Position numbers and translations under genes: made by a program | Shown: positions 8,523 to 36,629 of the stretch, piece by piece | Layout: every line of letters begins with the position of its first letter | Position numbering within the stretch: position 1 is the stretch's first letter | Notes under the pieces: model-generated | What the model was told of the DNA's origin: nothing | What the model saw: the letters and a program-made list of their open reading frames with translations, nothing else | Database searches by the model: none | Source: a virus | Virus record (IMG/VR): IMGVR_UViG_3300031578_000130 | Location: 1 to 41,737 of that record | Length of the DNA stretch: 41,737 nucleotides | Reading direction: 5' to 3' (one strand)

Positions 8523-8711
8523 TTATCTCTTTCTAAAAATGTATTTCAGCATATATTTCAATGGCCAGAAGAACGTGCTTGGATATATGAAAGCTCTGAT
8601 TATGAGAAACCATTTAGGCTTCATATCTTCATCTGAAAATTTGCTTTTTCTTTTAATCCAAAGATAAAAATATTTTCTTTTATTAGTTAAAAACCTTAGA
8701 TCTACCTTCAT
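8523..8711 (-). CDS. small single-pass membrane protein, 62 aa
   Basis: I chose the ATG at 8711, which follows AAAGGA at good distance and overlaps the terminase 3' end by 29 bases; a longer frame starts at 8753. The protein has a Lys/Arg-rich N-terminus, one hydrophobic stretch (residues about 33-52, PKWFLIIRAFIYPSTFFW) and a basic tail. No family recognised. Confidence 0.5.
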   Translation of the reverse strand: MKVDLRFLTNKRKYFYLWIKRKSKFSDEDMKPKWFLIIRAFIYPSTFFWPLKYMLKYIFRKR

Positions 8712-10236
8712 GCCTGTAATCCTTTCTGGTATCGACATCGACCCCAACATCAACGGCGGGTCCCGTTTCCGGATAGTATGTATTGGCTAAAGAATCACCC
8801 CAATCTGTAGACCGTCCAAGACGTTTTTTTATTTTCTCTTTTGCTTCGATCAATATTTCACCATTGGATTTTGTTACGAAAGATGGCGCCGTTAAATCTT
8901 CAATCAATTCATCAATCGGAGGAATGGCCAGGTTTATCCCGTTTTTCGGATCCAGCGCATCTCTTATAGCCCACCATAAATAAGCCCTCATATTAGCGAA
9001 CTTTCTTTCTCCTGTGAAATCAGTTAAGTCTTTTGCAGATTCTGAAAATTTAACGCTTACAGAACGAACCTTCTGCTCGATAAGTCTGGAATGCACTCCG
9101 GCTCCTTCGCCTATCGTATCAAGAAATGCTTGAGCGGATCCGGTTAATCGATTCTTTATCCGGCCGGCGTTTTCCATATGAATCGTTTCTCTCTTTTCGG
9201 GATTATGGAACTTCTCAGTTTTTTCTACAACGTTCCCATATCTGTGAGTATAAACAGAATAATCACGCCCCATGCCGGCAATGTCAACTCCGAGTCTCAA
9301 CGAATCTTTTAATTCCAGATATTTCTTTATCAGGTTTTCGAAAATGTCTTTCCATCTTTGAACGCCATCCTCTACCCATGATAGAGGAATGAGTTGATCC
9401 TCCCCTTCTAATGGGAATTCTCCAATGACCTTTACAAGAAAGAGATCGTTTGGCCGATACCATATTCCATCGAATTCGAAATCATGGTATTTTTTACTTA
9501 CTTCTGATTTGTCAATTTTAATACACCATTTTGCAACTTTTTCTTTTACCCATTCATAATCAACCTGGCCCGGGATAATAATTTTCTTCGCTTTCACATT
9601 CACGGCGTTCAAACAATTCAATATAAATTTTCCCTTGTAGAGAGGACTTCGAAAACTGTTATAAAATTCTCCGGATGCCCTGTTTGGGTTTCCTACAATA
9701 AGAAGTCTTGAAACTGTTCCGGTGAGTAATCCATCGATGGCATCAAATGTATTATCTTCAATACCGCTGGCTTCGGTAATAACTACCAACATATGAGGAG
9801 AATGATAACCGGTCCATGCTTCAACGGATCTATCTGCTGCCTTAAATCCTTCCAAATACCAATCGCTATCATAAAGGCCATCTTTTTCGTTCATGAATTT
9901 TATTTTATTTGTCAGTAAGGTACCACCCAGGGGAATCTTCGAATTTTTCCAGATCTTGCCGGTTTCAGCCATCATGATCCCCTCGACCTGCCGACCGGTG
10001 GGAGCTGTACAAATCACCTTACTTGGATAGTATGAATACAAAAAGCAAAGCCCAATAGCGGCCGCCACATAGTCTTTTCCTTTGGCGTGTCCGCTACGTG
10101 CGGTCGTTTTCCGGTTCTTATAAACAGACATTACAATGTCCTCTTGATCGGAATCCAGCTTGATCCCGAAAACGTCTCTACACATCTTGGGCCAGTCGTG
10201 GATATAATTTTCAATTTTAATATCAGCTTTTTTCAT
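8683..10236 (-). CDS. terL: terminase large subunit, 517 aa
   Basis: This is the DNA packaging motor with ATPase and nuclease domains. A Walker A-like loop is at residues 46-56 (ARSGHAKGKDY), Walker B near 150-156 (LVVITEA, Glu155 catalytic), and coupling motif near 179-190 (LIVGNPNRASGE). The nuclease domain begins near 313 (RLGVDIAGMGRDYS, Asp318 and Asp325), with further acidic residues near 373 and in STDWGDSLANTYY near the end. The P-loop has the SGHxxGKxx form seen in many phage terminases. It lies downstream of the small subunit, with one small gene between. Confidence 0.93.
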   Translation of the reverse strand: MKKADIKIENYIHDWPKMCRDVFGIKLDSDQEDIVMSVYKNRKTTARSGHAKGKDYVAAAIGLCFLYSYYPSKVICTAPTGRQVEGIMMAETGKIWKNSKIPLGGTLLTNKIKFMNEKDGLYDSDWYLEGFKAADRSVEAWTGYHSPHMLVVITEASGIEDNTFDAIDGLLTGTVSRLLIVGNPNRASGEFYNSFRSPLYKGKFILNCLNAVNVKAKKIIIPGQVDYEWVKEKVAKWCIKIDKSEVSKKYHDFEFDGIWYRPNDLFLVKVIGEFPLEGEDQLIPLSWVEDGVQRWKDIFENLIKKYLELKDSLRLGVDIAGMGRDYSVYTHRYGNVVEKTEKFHNPEKRETIHMENAGRIKNRLTGSAQAFLDTIGEGAGVHSRLIEQKVRSVSVKFSESAKDLTDFTGERKFANMRAYLWWAIRDALDPKNGINLAIPPIDELIEDLTAPSFVTKSNGEILIEAKEKIKKRLGRSTDWGDSLANTYYPETGPAVDVGVDVDTRKDYRHEGRSKVFN

Positions 10237-13318: not shown

Positions 13319-13708
13319 TTATTTATTATTGTTTCGCAACTTTGCAAATGTGATTTCCAATCTCGCCACATTGACGAGTTGGCCGATAGACTTATTTATT
13401 GATTCTGCCTGTTTGATATACCCTTTGTCTGATTGTACTTTTTTAATATTATCGAGAATAACAGCTTTCAGATTCAACATTTCGCTCCCCTTTGGAACGA
13501 TCTGCAACGAAGTTATTTCGATCTCGTCCTCGACCGGTAAAAATTGCTTTAAAACCGATTCCGCTTTTTCAAGCGGAAAACGAAACCATTTTTTGTCTGT
13601 TACAATTGTCAGTTGTCCATTCAAATCATAACTCAATATTTTGTAAATTCGCGTGTCATGCATAAATGAATGACCAACCATGCTGTCCAGTTTTTCATTT
13701 ACTTTCAT
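13319..13708 (-). CDS. hypothetical protein, 129 aa
   Basis: Starts MKVNEKLDSMVGHSFMHDTRIYKILSYD; the N-terminal half is beta-rich (TIVTDKKWFRFPLEKAESVL), the C-terminal half helical and basic. It appears to be a soluble cytoplasmic protein of no recognised family. Its start overlaps the 3' end of the HNH homing nuclease gene upstream by 14 bases. Confidence 0.7.
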   Translation of the reverse strand: MKVNEKLDSMVGHSFMHDTRIYKILSYDLNGQLTIVTDKKWFRFPLEKAESVLKQFLPVEDEIEITSLQIVPKGSEMLNLKAVILDNIKKVQSDKGYIKQAESINKSIGQLVNVARLEITFAKLRNNNK

Positions 13709-14429
13709 TGATGGCTCTCCTTAGTTTTAGTTGTATTCGTTTAAGCTCGAGTAGCTCCGGATATTTTATTAATTCTTTTCTCAATTCTTTATCGGTTCTA
13801 CTGATACATGAAGAAATGTATTGATCATTATCATATACTTTTCCACTAGCCCATGTTTTTTTATTTGTTATTCTTGCCTTTTCATAATTCCTATTTCTAT
13901 TCATATTTTCTTTTTTTGTTATACATCCAAGATTCTCAATTCTGCAATCTGTCGATACCCCGTTTATAAAATAAATTACCGAACTGGCCGGTATAGTTCT
14001 GTTGTTTTTTAGCCAGATATATTGATGATAAAGCATCCATTTATTATTTGATATTCGTATCCATTTATAGGTGCCATGAGGGCCTTTTCGAATAACTACA
14101 CATCCATCATATTTCAAACTTGCCGGTACGTGACCTTTTTTATATTCTGTACTCCTAGAGAAATGTACTCCCTTCATTCCTTTAGTCCAGGGCGTATGGC
14201 CTTTTTTGAACTGGTTTAGCCTTATGAGTTTCTTTCTTGCTTCCGGAGTTCGCTTTAATTTCATTTTATACATACAATTACTAACCTGGTGCTTACTTTT
14301 TCCGATCGAATCTCCGATCTGCAAACAAGACATTTTATTCAAATTCTCTTTGAGAAATTCAATCTCTAAATCAGTCCATTTATTCGGTTTTTTATTTGCC
14401 ATTATGTTTTTTGGGTTCTCCTGATCCAA
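13695..14429 (-). CDS. HNH-type homing endonuclease with N-terminal DNA-binding domain, 244 aa
   Basis: The N-terminus (NKWTDLEIEFLKENLNKMS...QIGDSIGKSKHQVSNCMYKM) is a SANT/Myb-like or HTH domain that gives target binding. The middle part (YKWIRISNNKWMLYHQYIWL...IPASSVIYFINGVSTDCRIENL) is an HNH domain of the homing type, with YHQYIW and the ENL motif. A C-terminal basic helix follows. It overlaps the conserved phage gene 14392-14850 by 38 bases. Such genes spread into phage genomes by double-strand-break repair. Confidence 0.8.
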   Translation of the reverse strand: MDQENPKNIMANKKPNKWTDLEIEFLKENLNKMSCLQIGDSIGKSKHQVSNCMYKMKLKRTPEARKKLIRLNQFKKGHTPWTKGMKGVHFSRSTEYKKGHVPASLKYDGCVVIRKGPHGTYKWIRISNNKWMLYHQYIWLKNNRTIPASSVIYFINGVSTDCRIENLGCITKKENMNRNRNYEKARITNKKTWASGKVYDNDQYISSCISRTDKELRKELIKYPELLELKRIQLKLRRAINESK

Positions 14430-14914: not shown

Positions 14915-15529
14915 TTAAATAAATTGCCCTCTTCTAATTATATTTCTAACATTAGACCATGAAATATTATACTTTTTACCAAGTTTCTTATAACCGTTCC
15001 TGTTTTCAATATATTCAGCTCTAATTTTATCTGCACTTTCTTTTGTTATTTTACATATACGGCTGTTCCTTATATTTTCTTTTGGAGTTACAAATCTACA
15101 ATTATTGGGTTCATAATTACCATCGTTATCAATCCTGTCTATTTGCAGATCTTTCCCCCATCTTTTTATCGCCCAATCATAAAAAGCCTTATAATCAGTT
15201 CTCCAGACTGAGCATATAGTAATCCCACGACCGCCATAGTGTCTATATTGCTTGTGTTTAATATCACAACATCTTTGGATCATGTTATACCAAGTATGAT
15301 AAAGTGGATGATTGCTTTTCCCGTGCGTTGTTTGTCTCTTTGCTAAAGATTCAGATAGATAACATCCACAACTTTTGGTATGCCCGGTACGAATATTATC
15401 ACCACGAATAACTTTATAATTACCACAATCGCAGAGACATAACTACATGGAGTTATTTCTCGAGTTGTTTAATTCTCGCGATACGATCTTTAGTTTACCA
15501 TATCTATTCCCGATTATGCTTTTCACCAT
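14915..15529 (-). pseudogene. HNH homing endonuclease interrupted by an amber codon
   Basis: The full frame starts at ATG 15529, inside the end of the upstream gene, and runs to 14915 but has TAG at 15445-15443 (codon 29). The residues around it (RYGKLKIVSRE...NNSM*LCLCDCGNYK) match a common homing nuclease N-terminus in which the stop position is Trp, so a TGG-to-TAG change is likely. After it come a Cys cluster (CDCG...SCGC), then YRHYGGRGITIC and DRIDNDGNYEPNNCRF, the HNH core. A 122-residue product from ATG 15283 would keep the HNH core but lose the Cys cluster. Confidence 0.8.
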
Positions 15530-15911
15530 TTTCATATCCCACAATTTTATCATTTTCAACTGCATATAACATTGTTCTTGGAGTCCAATATTTCATTTTG
15601 CCTTTTCTGTTTTTTAAAATTTTTCTCCATCCGATCAGCATCAAGGTTGCACCATTTGAAATCCAGTCCTCCGATTCGATGGTTTGCAATATTTTTTTAT
15701 CATGTTCTGAAAAACTGGATCCACATGATTGTACCCCAACGATACCGGATCCGGTCATTGCGATAATATCAATGATCCCGAACAGATCTTTTCTTTTACC
15801 GCCCCCGGGATGCCCGGGTATGTTGAGCCATCTTTCGACAATATCCGCTTTCCATCCTCGCGCACGGATGAGCTTCAATGTCCGCTGCGTATTACTGATT
15901 CCTTTTGACAT
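15504..15911 (-). CDS. PD-(D/E)XK-like nuclease, 135 aa
   Basis: The order RARGWKADIVERW, then RKDLFGIIDIIAM (Asp in DLFG and DII), then GIVGVQSCG and a helix recalls small VRR-NUC or Holliday-resolvase-like phage proteins. The usual ExK is replaced by VQSC, so activity is uncertain. The C-terminus has WTPRTMLY. It starts after GAGGAGA, just downstream of the attC-like hairpin at 15929-15981. Confidence 0.65.
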   Translation of the reverse strand: MSKGISNTQRTLKLIRARGWKADIVERWLNIPGHPGGGKRKDLFGIIDIIAMTGSGIVGVQSCGSSFSEHDKKILQTIESEDWISNGATLMLIGWRKILKNRKGKMKYWTPRTMLYAVENDKIVGYENGEKHNRE

Positions 15912-15928
15912 TTTATCTCCTCTGTTTT

Positions 15929-15981
15929 ATAACCACTGCATGGTACGGACGAACTTCACACCGCACATGCAGATGTTATGC
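15929..15981. other. attC-like imperfect hairpin, site 1
   Basis: Plus strand ATAAC (929-933) pairs with GTTAT (975-979); CA faces AT unpaired; CTGCATG (936-942) pairs with CATGCAG (966-972); G943 is extrahelical; TACGG (944-948) faces CCGCA (961-965), pairing best on the minus strand; the loop has 12 bases. (All numbers are offsets from 15000.) This is the order R box, central spacer, L box, extrahelical base, terminal loop found in integron attC sites. The stop codon of the 93-residue gene lies inside the R box. It could instead be an intercistronic RNA hairpin. Confidence 0.45.
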
Positions 15982-16257
15982 GCTTTCGTGATTAACGCAA
16001 CCATAATTCTCGCCTGTTATTAATTCTGCCCTATATTCACTACCATCAACAACGCATGCTCCTGATATTTCTGGTCGCTGGTAAAATAACAATTTAGGGC
16101 TTTTGCATCGTCTTACTTTATGACCAAATAAATTCGCAGCCTCTTCTTCCGTTTCGCATTGATCATAATCATCGCCTGGCTTGTAGGGGAAAATAATTGT
16201 ATCGTATTCATCATGGTCATCTATCAACCAACATTTACAAGTTTTACAAGTTTTCAT
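15976..16257 (-). CDS. Cys-rich protein flanked by attC-like hairpins, 93 aa
   Basis: Starts MKTCKTCKCWLIDDHDEY after AAGGAGATAAAG; further Cys occur in DQCETEE, VRRCKSPKL, GACVVDGSEY and YGCVNHE, suggesting a zinc-binding fold. The block FYQRPEISGACVVDGSEY is distinctive and I believe recurs in phage proteins of unknown function. The gene lies between two attC-like elements with a 10-base inverted repeat (GTTATGCGCT at 15975, its complement at 16281), giving a cassette-like unit of about 377 bp. Confidence 0.75.
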   Translation of the reverse strand: MKTCKTCKCWLIDDHDEYDTIIFPYKPGDDYDQCETEEEAANLFGHKVRRCKSPKLLFYQRPEISGACVVDGSEYRAELITGENYGCVNHESA

Positions 16258-16283
16258 CTTTATCTCCTTAAAGTTAAATCAGC

Positions 16284-16358
16284 GCATAACCAAGTATTCA
16301 ACACGGACAACCCCACACACGGCTCCCGGCCATTTGCCGGTTAATACAACCGTTGTGT
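16284..16358. other. attC-like imperfect hairpin, site 2
   Basis: Plus strand GCATAAC (284-290) faces GTTGTGT (352-358); CAA faces AACC unpaired; GTATT (294-298) pairs with AATAC (343-347). Then AAC, CGG and CAA pair with GTT, CCG and TTG, separated by single unpaired bases C299, A303 and A307, all on the same arm. (Numbers are offsets from 16000.) Bulges on one arm with an unpaired spacer next to AAC/GTT are the hallmarks of integron attC sites. The inner end holds a small Gly/Cys-codon-free GC hairpin (CCGGC, GCCGG). Confidence 0.5.
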
Positions 16359-16591: not shown

Positions 16592-17062
16592 TCATAATTT
16601 AAATCCAAAATTTATAATACTGCTTTTAATATTTTGAATAGCCCTGAAATCATAAATATTTTTTCCGCGTTTTCTTAAAAGCAGGTTCAATCTTTTTCTC
16701 AGAGCAACAACCCAGCACGGTTCTATTTCTTGAATGATGCTGTCTGTCTCTTTAAAAAGTATTCTGCCAAGAACTTCCATATCTTCGATGTGTTCTTTTT
16801 TGATATAGGCATTGATATAATTCCAGTACGGTTTTTCAAATATCTTTCTCAAATATGGATAAGCGCCCTTTCCCATATTTTCAGTCGGGATCCCCGCTTT
16901 CGTTTTCCCAACCTTTTTTATCCAGTTTATAATCGATACTATTAAATCATATCCGTACTTGCATCGATACTCGCTGGCCAGAGTTATCCAGTTTTGGTTC
17001 TTATCGAAATACAATAGCATTTCCGCGATTTCACCTGTTTGTTTTCTTTTGTCAATTTTCAA
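16592..17062 (-). CDS. hypothetical protein, 156 aa
   Basis: The start is TTG at 17062, 6 bases after AAGGA. The protein is helical and basic (ASEYRCKYGYDLIVSIINWI, VALRKRLNLLLRKRGKNIYD). It follows the DUF1376-like gene and could act in replication, but no motif is recognised. Confidence 0.7.
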   Translation of the reverse strand: MKIDKRKQTGEIAEMLLYFDKNQNWITLASEYRCKYGYDLIVSIINWIKKVGKTKAGIPTENMGKGAYPYLRKIFEKPYWNYINAYIKKEHIEDMEVLGRILFKETDSIIQEIEPCWVVALRKRLNLLLRKRGKNIYDFRAIQNIKSSIINFGFKL

Positions 17063-17457: not shown

Positions 17458-17760
17458 CTATATAAGCCTTTTGTTAAGTGTTGGATGTAATCTTTTAATA
17501 AAATACTTTTCAAGTTTTAATCTGTGTTTATTTATGAATCTTATTTTAATTAAGAATTTTTTTGATTTAAGACGATTATAGATATTGTGTGCGGTTATTC
17601 TTCTTTTAAGATTGGTTGATGTCCCTACATATAATAATTTATAATTATTTCTAACTGAGCTATAAATATAAAAAGCATAGCACCCAGCCATTTCTGGGAT
17701 ATAATTAAAATTAATCATGATCCATTTTTTATAATGGAATTCTTGATTATTATTCTGCAT
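17458..17760 (-). CDS. GIY-YIG endonuclease, 100 aa
   Basis: The motifs are in order: GCYAFYIY (GIY), LLYVGTSTNLKRRITAH (YVG with the catalytic Arg region), and LEKYFIKRLHPTLNKRL (catalytic Glu and Asn). The protein is little more than the nuclease domain, as in small mobile GIY-YIG proteins. The gene overlaps the end of the RHH regulator by 11 bases and ends next to the DUF1376-like start. A later Met (residue 15) could be the true start. Confidence 0.82.
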   Translation of the reverse strand: MQNNNQEFHYKKWIMINFNYIPEMAGCYAFYIYSSVRNNYKLLYVGTSTNLKRRITAHNIYNRLKSKKFLIKIRFINKHRLKLEKYFIKRLHPTLNKRLI

Positions 17761-36159: not shown

Positions 36160-36164
36160 TCACC

Positions 36165-36629
36165 TCAACTAAAAAAACCAATGATTCTGAAATAAGCCTT
36201 TTTCCCGCTCGCAAGCTCGGCATTCGCACCGGCATTGGTTTTTGTGTTGATCACAATCAGATGAGAAGTAATATCACCGAGAACATCAAACTGAGTGATA
36301 TTCGTATCGTCACCGTATGCAGAGCCCACACAAAAAATATGAGTAACCGCATCCACATTGATTTCGTAATCGCCGGCCCCATTGCGGGATACATTGCTAT
36401 CGAAAGCGGTATAAGCCGCTTCTTCCGTGGCTCCCAGATCGGACAGTGCAGTATAATCTGCGGTAACCGAATTCACATAGAGCTTGTATTTCATGGTTCC
36501 GGTATCGTTGTAAAGTTCGAGAACCATTGAAAACAGATGCAATCCGAGGATTGTTCCACCCCCAGCTACAAACTTATTCAGATTCGCAGCTTTTACTTCT
36601 GTTGACCCGTCTGTAAAAATGACTGCCAT
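36165..36629 (-). CDS. tail-region protein, 154 aa
   Basis: Beta-rich, Thr/Ala/Asn-rich, no leader (MAVIFTDGSTEVKAANLNKF). It lies directly after the second tail tube paralogue and is probably a structural protein. Family not recognised. Confidence 0.72.
   Translation of the reverse strand: MAVIFTDGSTEVKAANLNKFVAGGGTILGLHLFSMVLELYNDTGTMKYKLYVNSVTADYTALSDLGATEEAAYTAFDSNVSRNGAGDYEINVDAVTHIFCVGSAYGDDTNITQFDVLGDITSHLIVINTKTNAGANAELASGKKAYFRIIGFFS

Follow-up and report, generated by a model that had tools for sequence, protein, structure and literature searches.

Does a phage genome in which no integron integrase is detected carry a gene cassette of the integron type, and what could have placed it there? 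The question is raised by a small gene lying between two attC-like hairpins in the IMG/VR virus record IMGVR_UViG_3300031578_000130, whose 41,737 bp make up the whole stretch of DNA analyzed here (the window). The minus strand of the record holds portal, head-protease, minor head, and tail-type genes, and HNH and GIY-YIG endonuclease genes are found around the locus (positions 13695 to 14429, 14915 to 15283, and 17458 to 17760). As the original prediction had it, the integron integrase (TIGR02249) is absent from the record, which may be a fragment, and by this absence the record holds no complete integron (intI plus attI). With regard to the definition of a CALIN (at least two attCs without an integrase), the window offers two attC-like sites 300 bp apart, neither of which passes the attC model that we built.

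The putative cassette and its gene

Site 1, the attC-like hairpin that would have received the cassette, spans positions 15927 to 15981 on the plus strand (R'' TTATAAC at 15927 to 15933, R' GTTATGC at 15975 to 15981), and site 2, the putative diverged attC of the cassette, spans positions 16284 to 16358 on the same strand (R'' GCATAAC at 16284 to 16290, R' GTTGTGT at 16352 to 16358). The cassette predicted between the crossover points (G/TT; 15975/15976 and 16352/16353) occupies positions 15976 to 16352, with the plus strand as the top strand of the attC and with limits set by homology to another phage (L079/L003) and by a 10-bp complementarity of its boxes; the TTATGC part of the site 1 R' box is thus counted as cassette sequence. 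From GTT 15975 to GTT 16352 the unit measures exactly 377 bp, the length first estimated, and it contains one gene of 93 amino acids on the minus strand (15976 to 16257), preceded by an RBS-like AAGGAG (16264 to 16269, minus strand). The boxes and positions of both sites hold up, as do the claims that the stop codon of this gene falls within the GTT box of site 1, which is the start box, and that both sites are followed on the minus strand by a ribosome site and an ATG; these belong to the 93-aa gene and to the next gene (15504 to 15911, minus strand; 135 aa), which has relatives in other phages (53 to 54% identical in L006 and L007).

The 93-aa protein is without a Pfam or PHROG match, and four cysteines are invariant across the alignment with its relatives, to which it is 88% (L003), 55% (L004), and 36% (L005) identical. 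With 26 synonymous and 12 nonsynonymous codon changes between the window and L079, the gene looks to be under purifying selection. Given that its neighbor in L003 is a Lar-type restriction-alleviation gene, our guess is a zinc-binding protein with a role in host takeover or antidefense. In a species-level genome collection, the gene had two distant relatives and nothing more. A distant relative of the protein is present in an Accumulibacter metagenome-assembled genome (L118 to L120, the same genome as L022) that also has three strong attCs (36 to 38 bits).

Relatives of the window phage were scarce. The gene at 16592 to 17062 found none, the protein encoded at 8683 to 10236 and the portal protein returned distant phages only, and the contig of the portal relative stops short of the locus and so offers no empty site for comparison. 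The sole match in an INPHARED DNA search, of about 70 bp near 15.1 kb, was to Staphylococcus phages, and an Rfam search matched nothing.

Folding and model scores of the two sites

On its bottom strand, site 1 forms an R stem, two-base spacers, and a long L stem with one extrahelical base and a 12-nt loop; this fold (−10.9 kcal/mol, z of −3.1) beats 199 of 200 shuffled sequences, and that of the top strand beats 198 of 200. The best inner stem of site 2 has 11 bp and two single-base bulges (G and T, bottom strand). Of the one and three extrahelical bases originally described, the one in site 1 therefore stands, whereas site 2 has two single-base bulges instead of three. The fold of site 2 is no better than chance (z of −0.35 and −0.5), since a rival hairpin has the greater stability, and its attC-like fold is found only as a suboptimal structure, not as that of minimum energy.

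We also built an attC covariance model from 20 attCs of class 1 integrons and a Vibrio prophage. The model picks up three TJE1 sites and several sites in MW202573, for both of which attCs have been reported (Qi et al. 2023), but it recovers neither window site (at most 7.5 bits; site 1 scores 6.6 bits on the minus and 3.8 bits on the plus strand). With our model, the first half of the refuting condition attached to the original prediction (no covariance-model hit) thus holds, and we do not call the sites functional attCs. In a blind scan of the window for the attC shape, site 2 came out joint top, on the plus strand only; two of the four control loci (14 and 18 kb) each held one equally good match. 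A simple shape scan that tolerated an additional base on either arm matched 10 places on one window strand and was dropped as too loose, and the motif GGNTTAATACAACNGTT used by itself proved mostly chance, with a convincing model match in only the two records of the phage already known among 68 contigs. Elsewhere in the window, a long palindrome with a T-rich arm (36163 to 36252), possibly a terminator, mimics the attC shape on both strands. The structure of the window sites alone is thus weak, and it is comparative evidence that carries the case for a cassette.

The unit in an unrelated phage

This evidence comes from one other IMG/VR phage, which has its own terminase and replication genes and is represented by two contigs (L002 and L003/L079) with no difference between them over the 6 kb compared. 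By blastn, only positions 15975 to 16301 of the window match it (83.5%), and the stretches compared have no further gene or DNA in common with the window. In a global alignment with L079, the homologous stretch extends from GTT 15975 to the GTT of site 2, with both limits exact; the 377-bp unit scores 385, compared with a maximum of 27 for shuffled sequence, while the 300-bp flanks score no higher than shuffled sequence and contain no common linker. Both limits fall on GTT in the same orientation, and GTT occurs at about 1.9% of window positions. An unrelated phage thus carries the unit with breaks precisely at both GTTs, beside an attC that the model does detect, and the second half of the refuting condition, relatives lacking precise boundaries, fails.

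This attC, which lies next to the gene in L003/L079 on the equivalent strand (31.6 bits, E value of 4e-6), folds with two extrahelical bases on its bottom strand. Site 2 occupies the same position and has the R'' end, the spacers (AAGTAT/AATACNAC), and the L' end in common with it. The inner stem reads GTATTAACCGG in site 2 and GTATTAAGCCG in L003/L079, and the other arm is altered to match, amounting to two compensatory pair changes. Because of the shared position, ends, and spacers and of these compensatory changes, site 2 is best read, by sequence comparison, as a diverged form of a real attC. Site 2 has probably undergone drift, its capacity to recombine may now be poor, and its present mobility is doubtful. 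As far as the alignments go, then, one cassette with exact ends is present in two unrelated phages.

Two features of the other phage lie close by. A second attC-like site in L079 (9411 to 9470), not scored by the model, has the same spacers as the first (TAACCAAGTAT...GAATACCACCGTT), and a repeat, GGTTATAATAACCGGTGCAGG, flanks the pair formed by the Lar-like gene and the cassette in L003 (4619 to 4640 and 5258 to 5279); possible readings of this repeat are an operator, a promoter, or an insertion remnant. The neighbor gene of L003, used as a query, returned only this same phage.

Complementarity between start box and R''

When a cassette is free and circular, the bases directly following G/TT pair with R''. 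A test for this complementarity does not depend on alignment limits. The window sequence GTTATGCGCT is perfectly complementary, over 10 bp, to AGCGCATAAC, which lies about 300 bp from it, and in L079 GTTATATGC pairs with GCATATAAC over 9 bp. Complementarity of 8 to 10 bp is likewise present in L099, L107, L110, L111, L115, and L004, and the cassettes of TJE1, taken as a positive control, have it over 8 bp, while a random GTT reaches an equal value in about 0.5 to 3% of cases. Such complementarity is a signature of a circular cassette. The gene at 15504 to 15911 was considered as a second cassette, which was not supported, the R'' of its site having no start-box partner.

By these junctions, L099, L107, L110, L111, and L115 are five further phage contigs with predicted cassette boundaries. 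They were found through a pattern modeled on the window site and are not a random sample, L099 and L111 being close relatives, and their sites receive no score from our attC model. The pairs L099/L111 and L107/L110 each have the site and its left side in common and diverge right after GTT. In all five, the gene neighboring the attC-like site (TAACNAAGTAT...AATACGACNGTT) switches immediately after GTT; judged by eye, the genes in question encode DNA methyltransferases, a GIY-YIG nuclease, and a macro-domain protein. L004 has three attCs (598 to 1477, 18.7 to 24.5 bits) on its minus strand, separated by genes of the plus strand, i.e., inverted cassettes, about 3.5 kb from its 55% relative of the 93-aa gene.

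Orientation of the cassette gene

It is site 2, next to the gene's 5' end, that travels with the 93-aa gene. Three observations put the attC on this side, namely, the polarity of the bulges, the strand on which the model match falls, and the limits of homology, and they bear out both the assignment of the plus strand as attC top strand, with which the polarity of the extrahelical bases agrees, and the suspicion that the gene is reversed relative to the usual cassette. The window cassette thus departs from the canonical order, in which the attC follows the 3' end of the gene, and the same inversion is seen in eight of eight distinct cassettes of this kind (the window and L079, counted once, L099, L107, L110, L111, L115, and two in L004), in which the stop codon often overlaps the start box. 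Cassettes of TJE1 and most of those in the Vibrio prophage are in the canonical orientation. However, of about 17 nontransposase genes in the part of Vibrio prophage MK672802 that contains its cassettes, 2 are likewise annotated on the opposite strand, so that an attC at the 3' end is usual but not obligatory.

Within an integron, the array promoter would not drive expression of a gene in inverted orientation. The window cassette gene is in line with the minus-strand genes of the phage and has its own ribosome site; being read along with phage transcription would explain why inverted cassettes persist in phages.

How the unit may have moved

We consider it very likely that the 377-bp unit represents a gene cassette of the integron type, carried by a phage without a detected integrase. 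In an integron-bearing host, IntI would fold the attC bottom strand and recombine it with a GTT-containing site in phage DNA, namely, the attC-like site 1 in the window phage and presumably, in the L079 phage, a simple attG-type GTT on the left side, and the cassette would thereby be inserted precisely at G/TT. Precise ends, attC homology, complementary boxes, and no other DNA in common in the loci compared can be read from the sequences; the role of host IntI, as well as the direction and number of transfers, we infer. A bacterial integron with this type of attC was not found among 398 genomes of one sampled phylum.

The unit could instead be a product of ordinary phage mosaicism, an option favored by the HNH and GIY-YIG genes that stand free in its neighborhood in the window. 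It would then have been moved by homologous or illegitimate recombination or by exchange driven by homing endonucleases, and hairpins would be found at its ends by coincidence or as places where DNA tends to break. Yet both limits sit exactly on GTT in the same orientation in spite of the low frequency of this triplet, the outer flanks have no linker in common, and neither the 9- to 10-bp complementarity between start box and R'' nor the model-supported attC of L003 would be explained, which makes mosaicism improbable. We give still less credence, indeed very little, to the idea that the sites are RNA hairpins only, acting as terminators or in translation control with no part in recombination. 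Their intergenic location just upstream of ribosome sites and the stable hairpin at site 1 would suit such a function, but it would account neither for the exact homology limits nor for complementary boxes about 300 bp apart. Under the preferred explanation, a cassette placed by host IntI, host recombination enzymes probably moved genes between viruses in the way that bacteria shuffle resistance genes.

Relation to known cassettes and implications

By its ends, the unit belongs with integron gene cassettes. It resembles those of class 1 integrons and Vibrio chromosomal integrons in its G/TT ends, in an attC hairpin with extrahelical bases, and in having one small gene per cassette, and the L003 attC is similar to class 1 attCs (TTCAAGCCG...CGGCTTAA); it differs from them in that the window attC adjoins the 5' end of the gene, integrase and array promoter are missing, and the sites are degenerate. 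Phage-borne attCs or CALINs have been described in Tetrasphaera phage TJE1, Polaribacter phage P12002L, Pseudoalteromonas phage PH101, and MW202573, and those of TJE1 were tested experimentally (Qi et al. 2023, PMC9892861). These phages also have attCs without an integrase, and the TJE1 sites are found by our model and display the same complementarity of start box and R''. In contrast, the cassettes of TJE1 and PH101 are in the usual orientation (PMC9892861), whereas the window gene is inverted and its cassette occurs in two unrelated phages. Carriage of attCs by phages is therefore already published (PMC9892861); what appears novel is that the gene is inverted and that unrelated phages share the unit precisely. 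Described for bacterial genomes, the insertion of cassettes outside integrons, at attG sites (Loot et al. 2024, as cited in PMC11023631), would account for entry where attI is lacking, as on the left side in L079.

That the genes are consistently inverted points to selection of these cassettes within transcription units of phages rather than in bacterial arrays. More tentatively, and with the odds against it, phages might keep a pool of their own of inverted cassettes (antirestriction and other phage-useful genes) which a bacterial integron promoter could not express and which host integrases swap between unrelated phages, making phages a reservoir and possibly a birthplace of cassettes. The origin of integron cassettes and their passage from host to host have long been open questions, and the occurrence of one cassette, with exact ends, in two unrelated phages supports a role of phages as both carriers and exchange partners.
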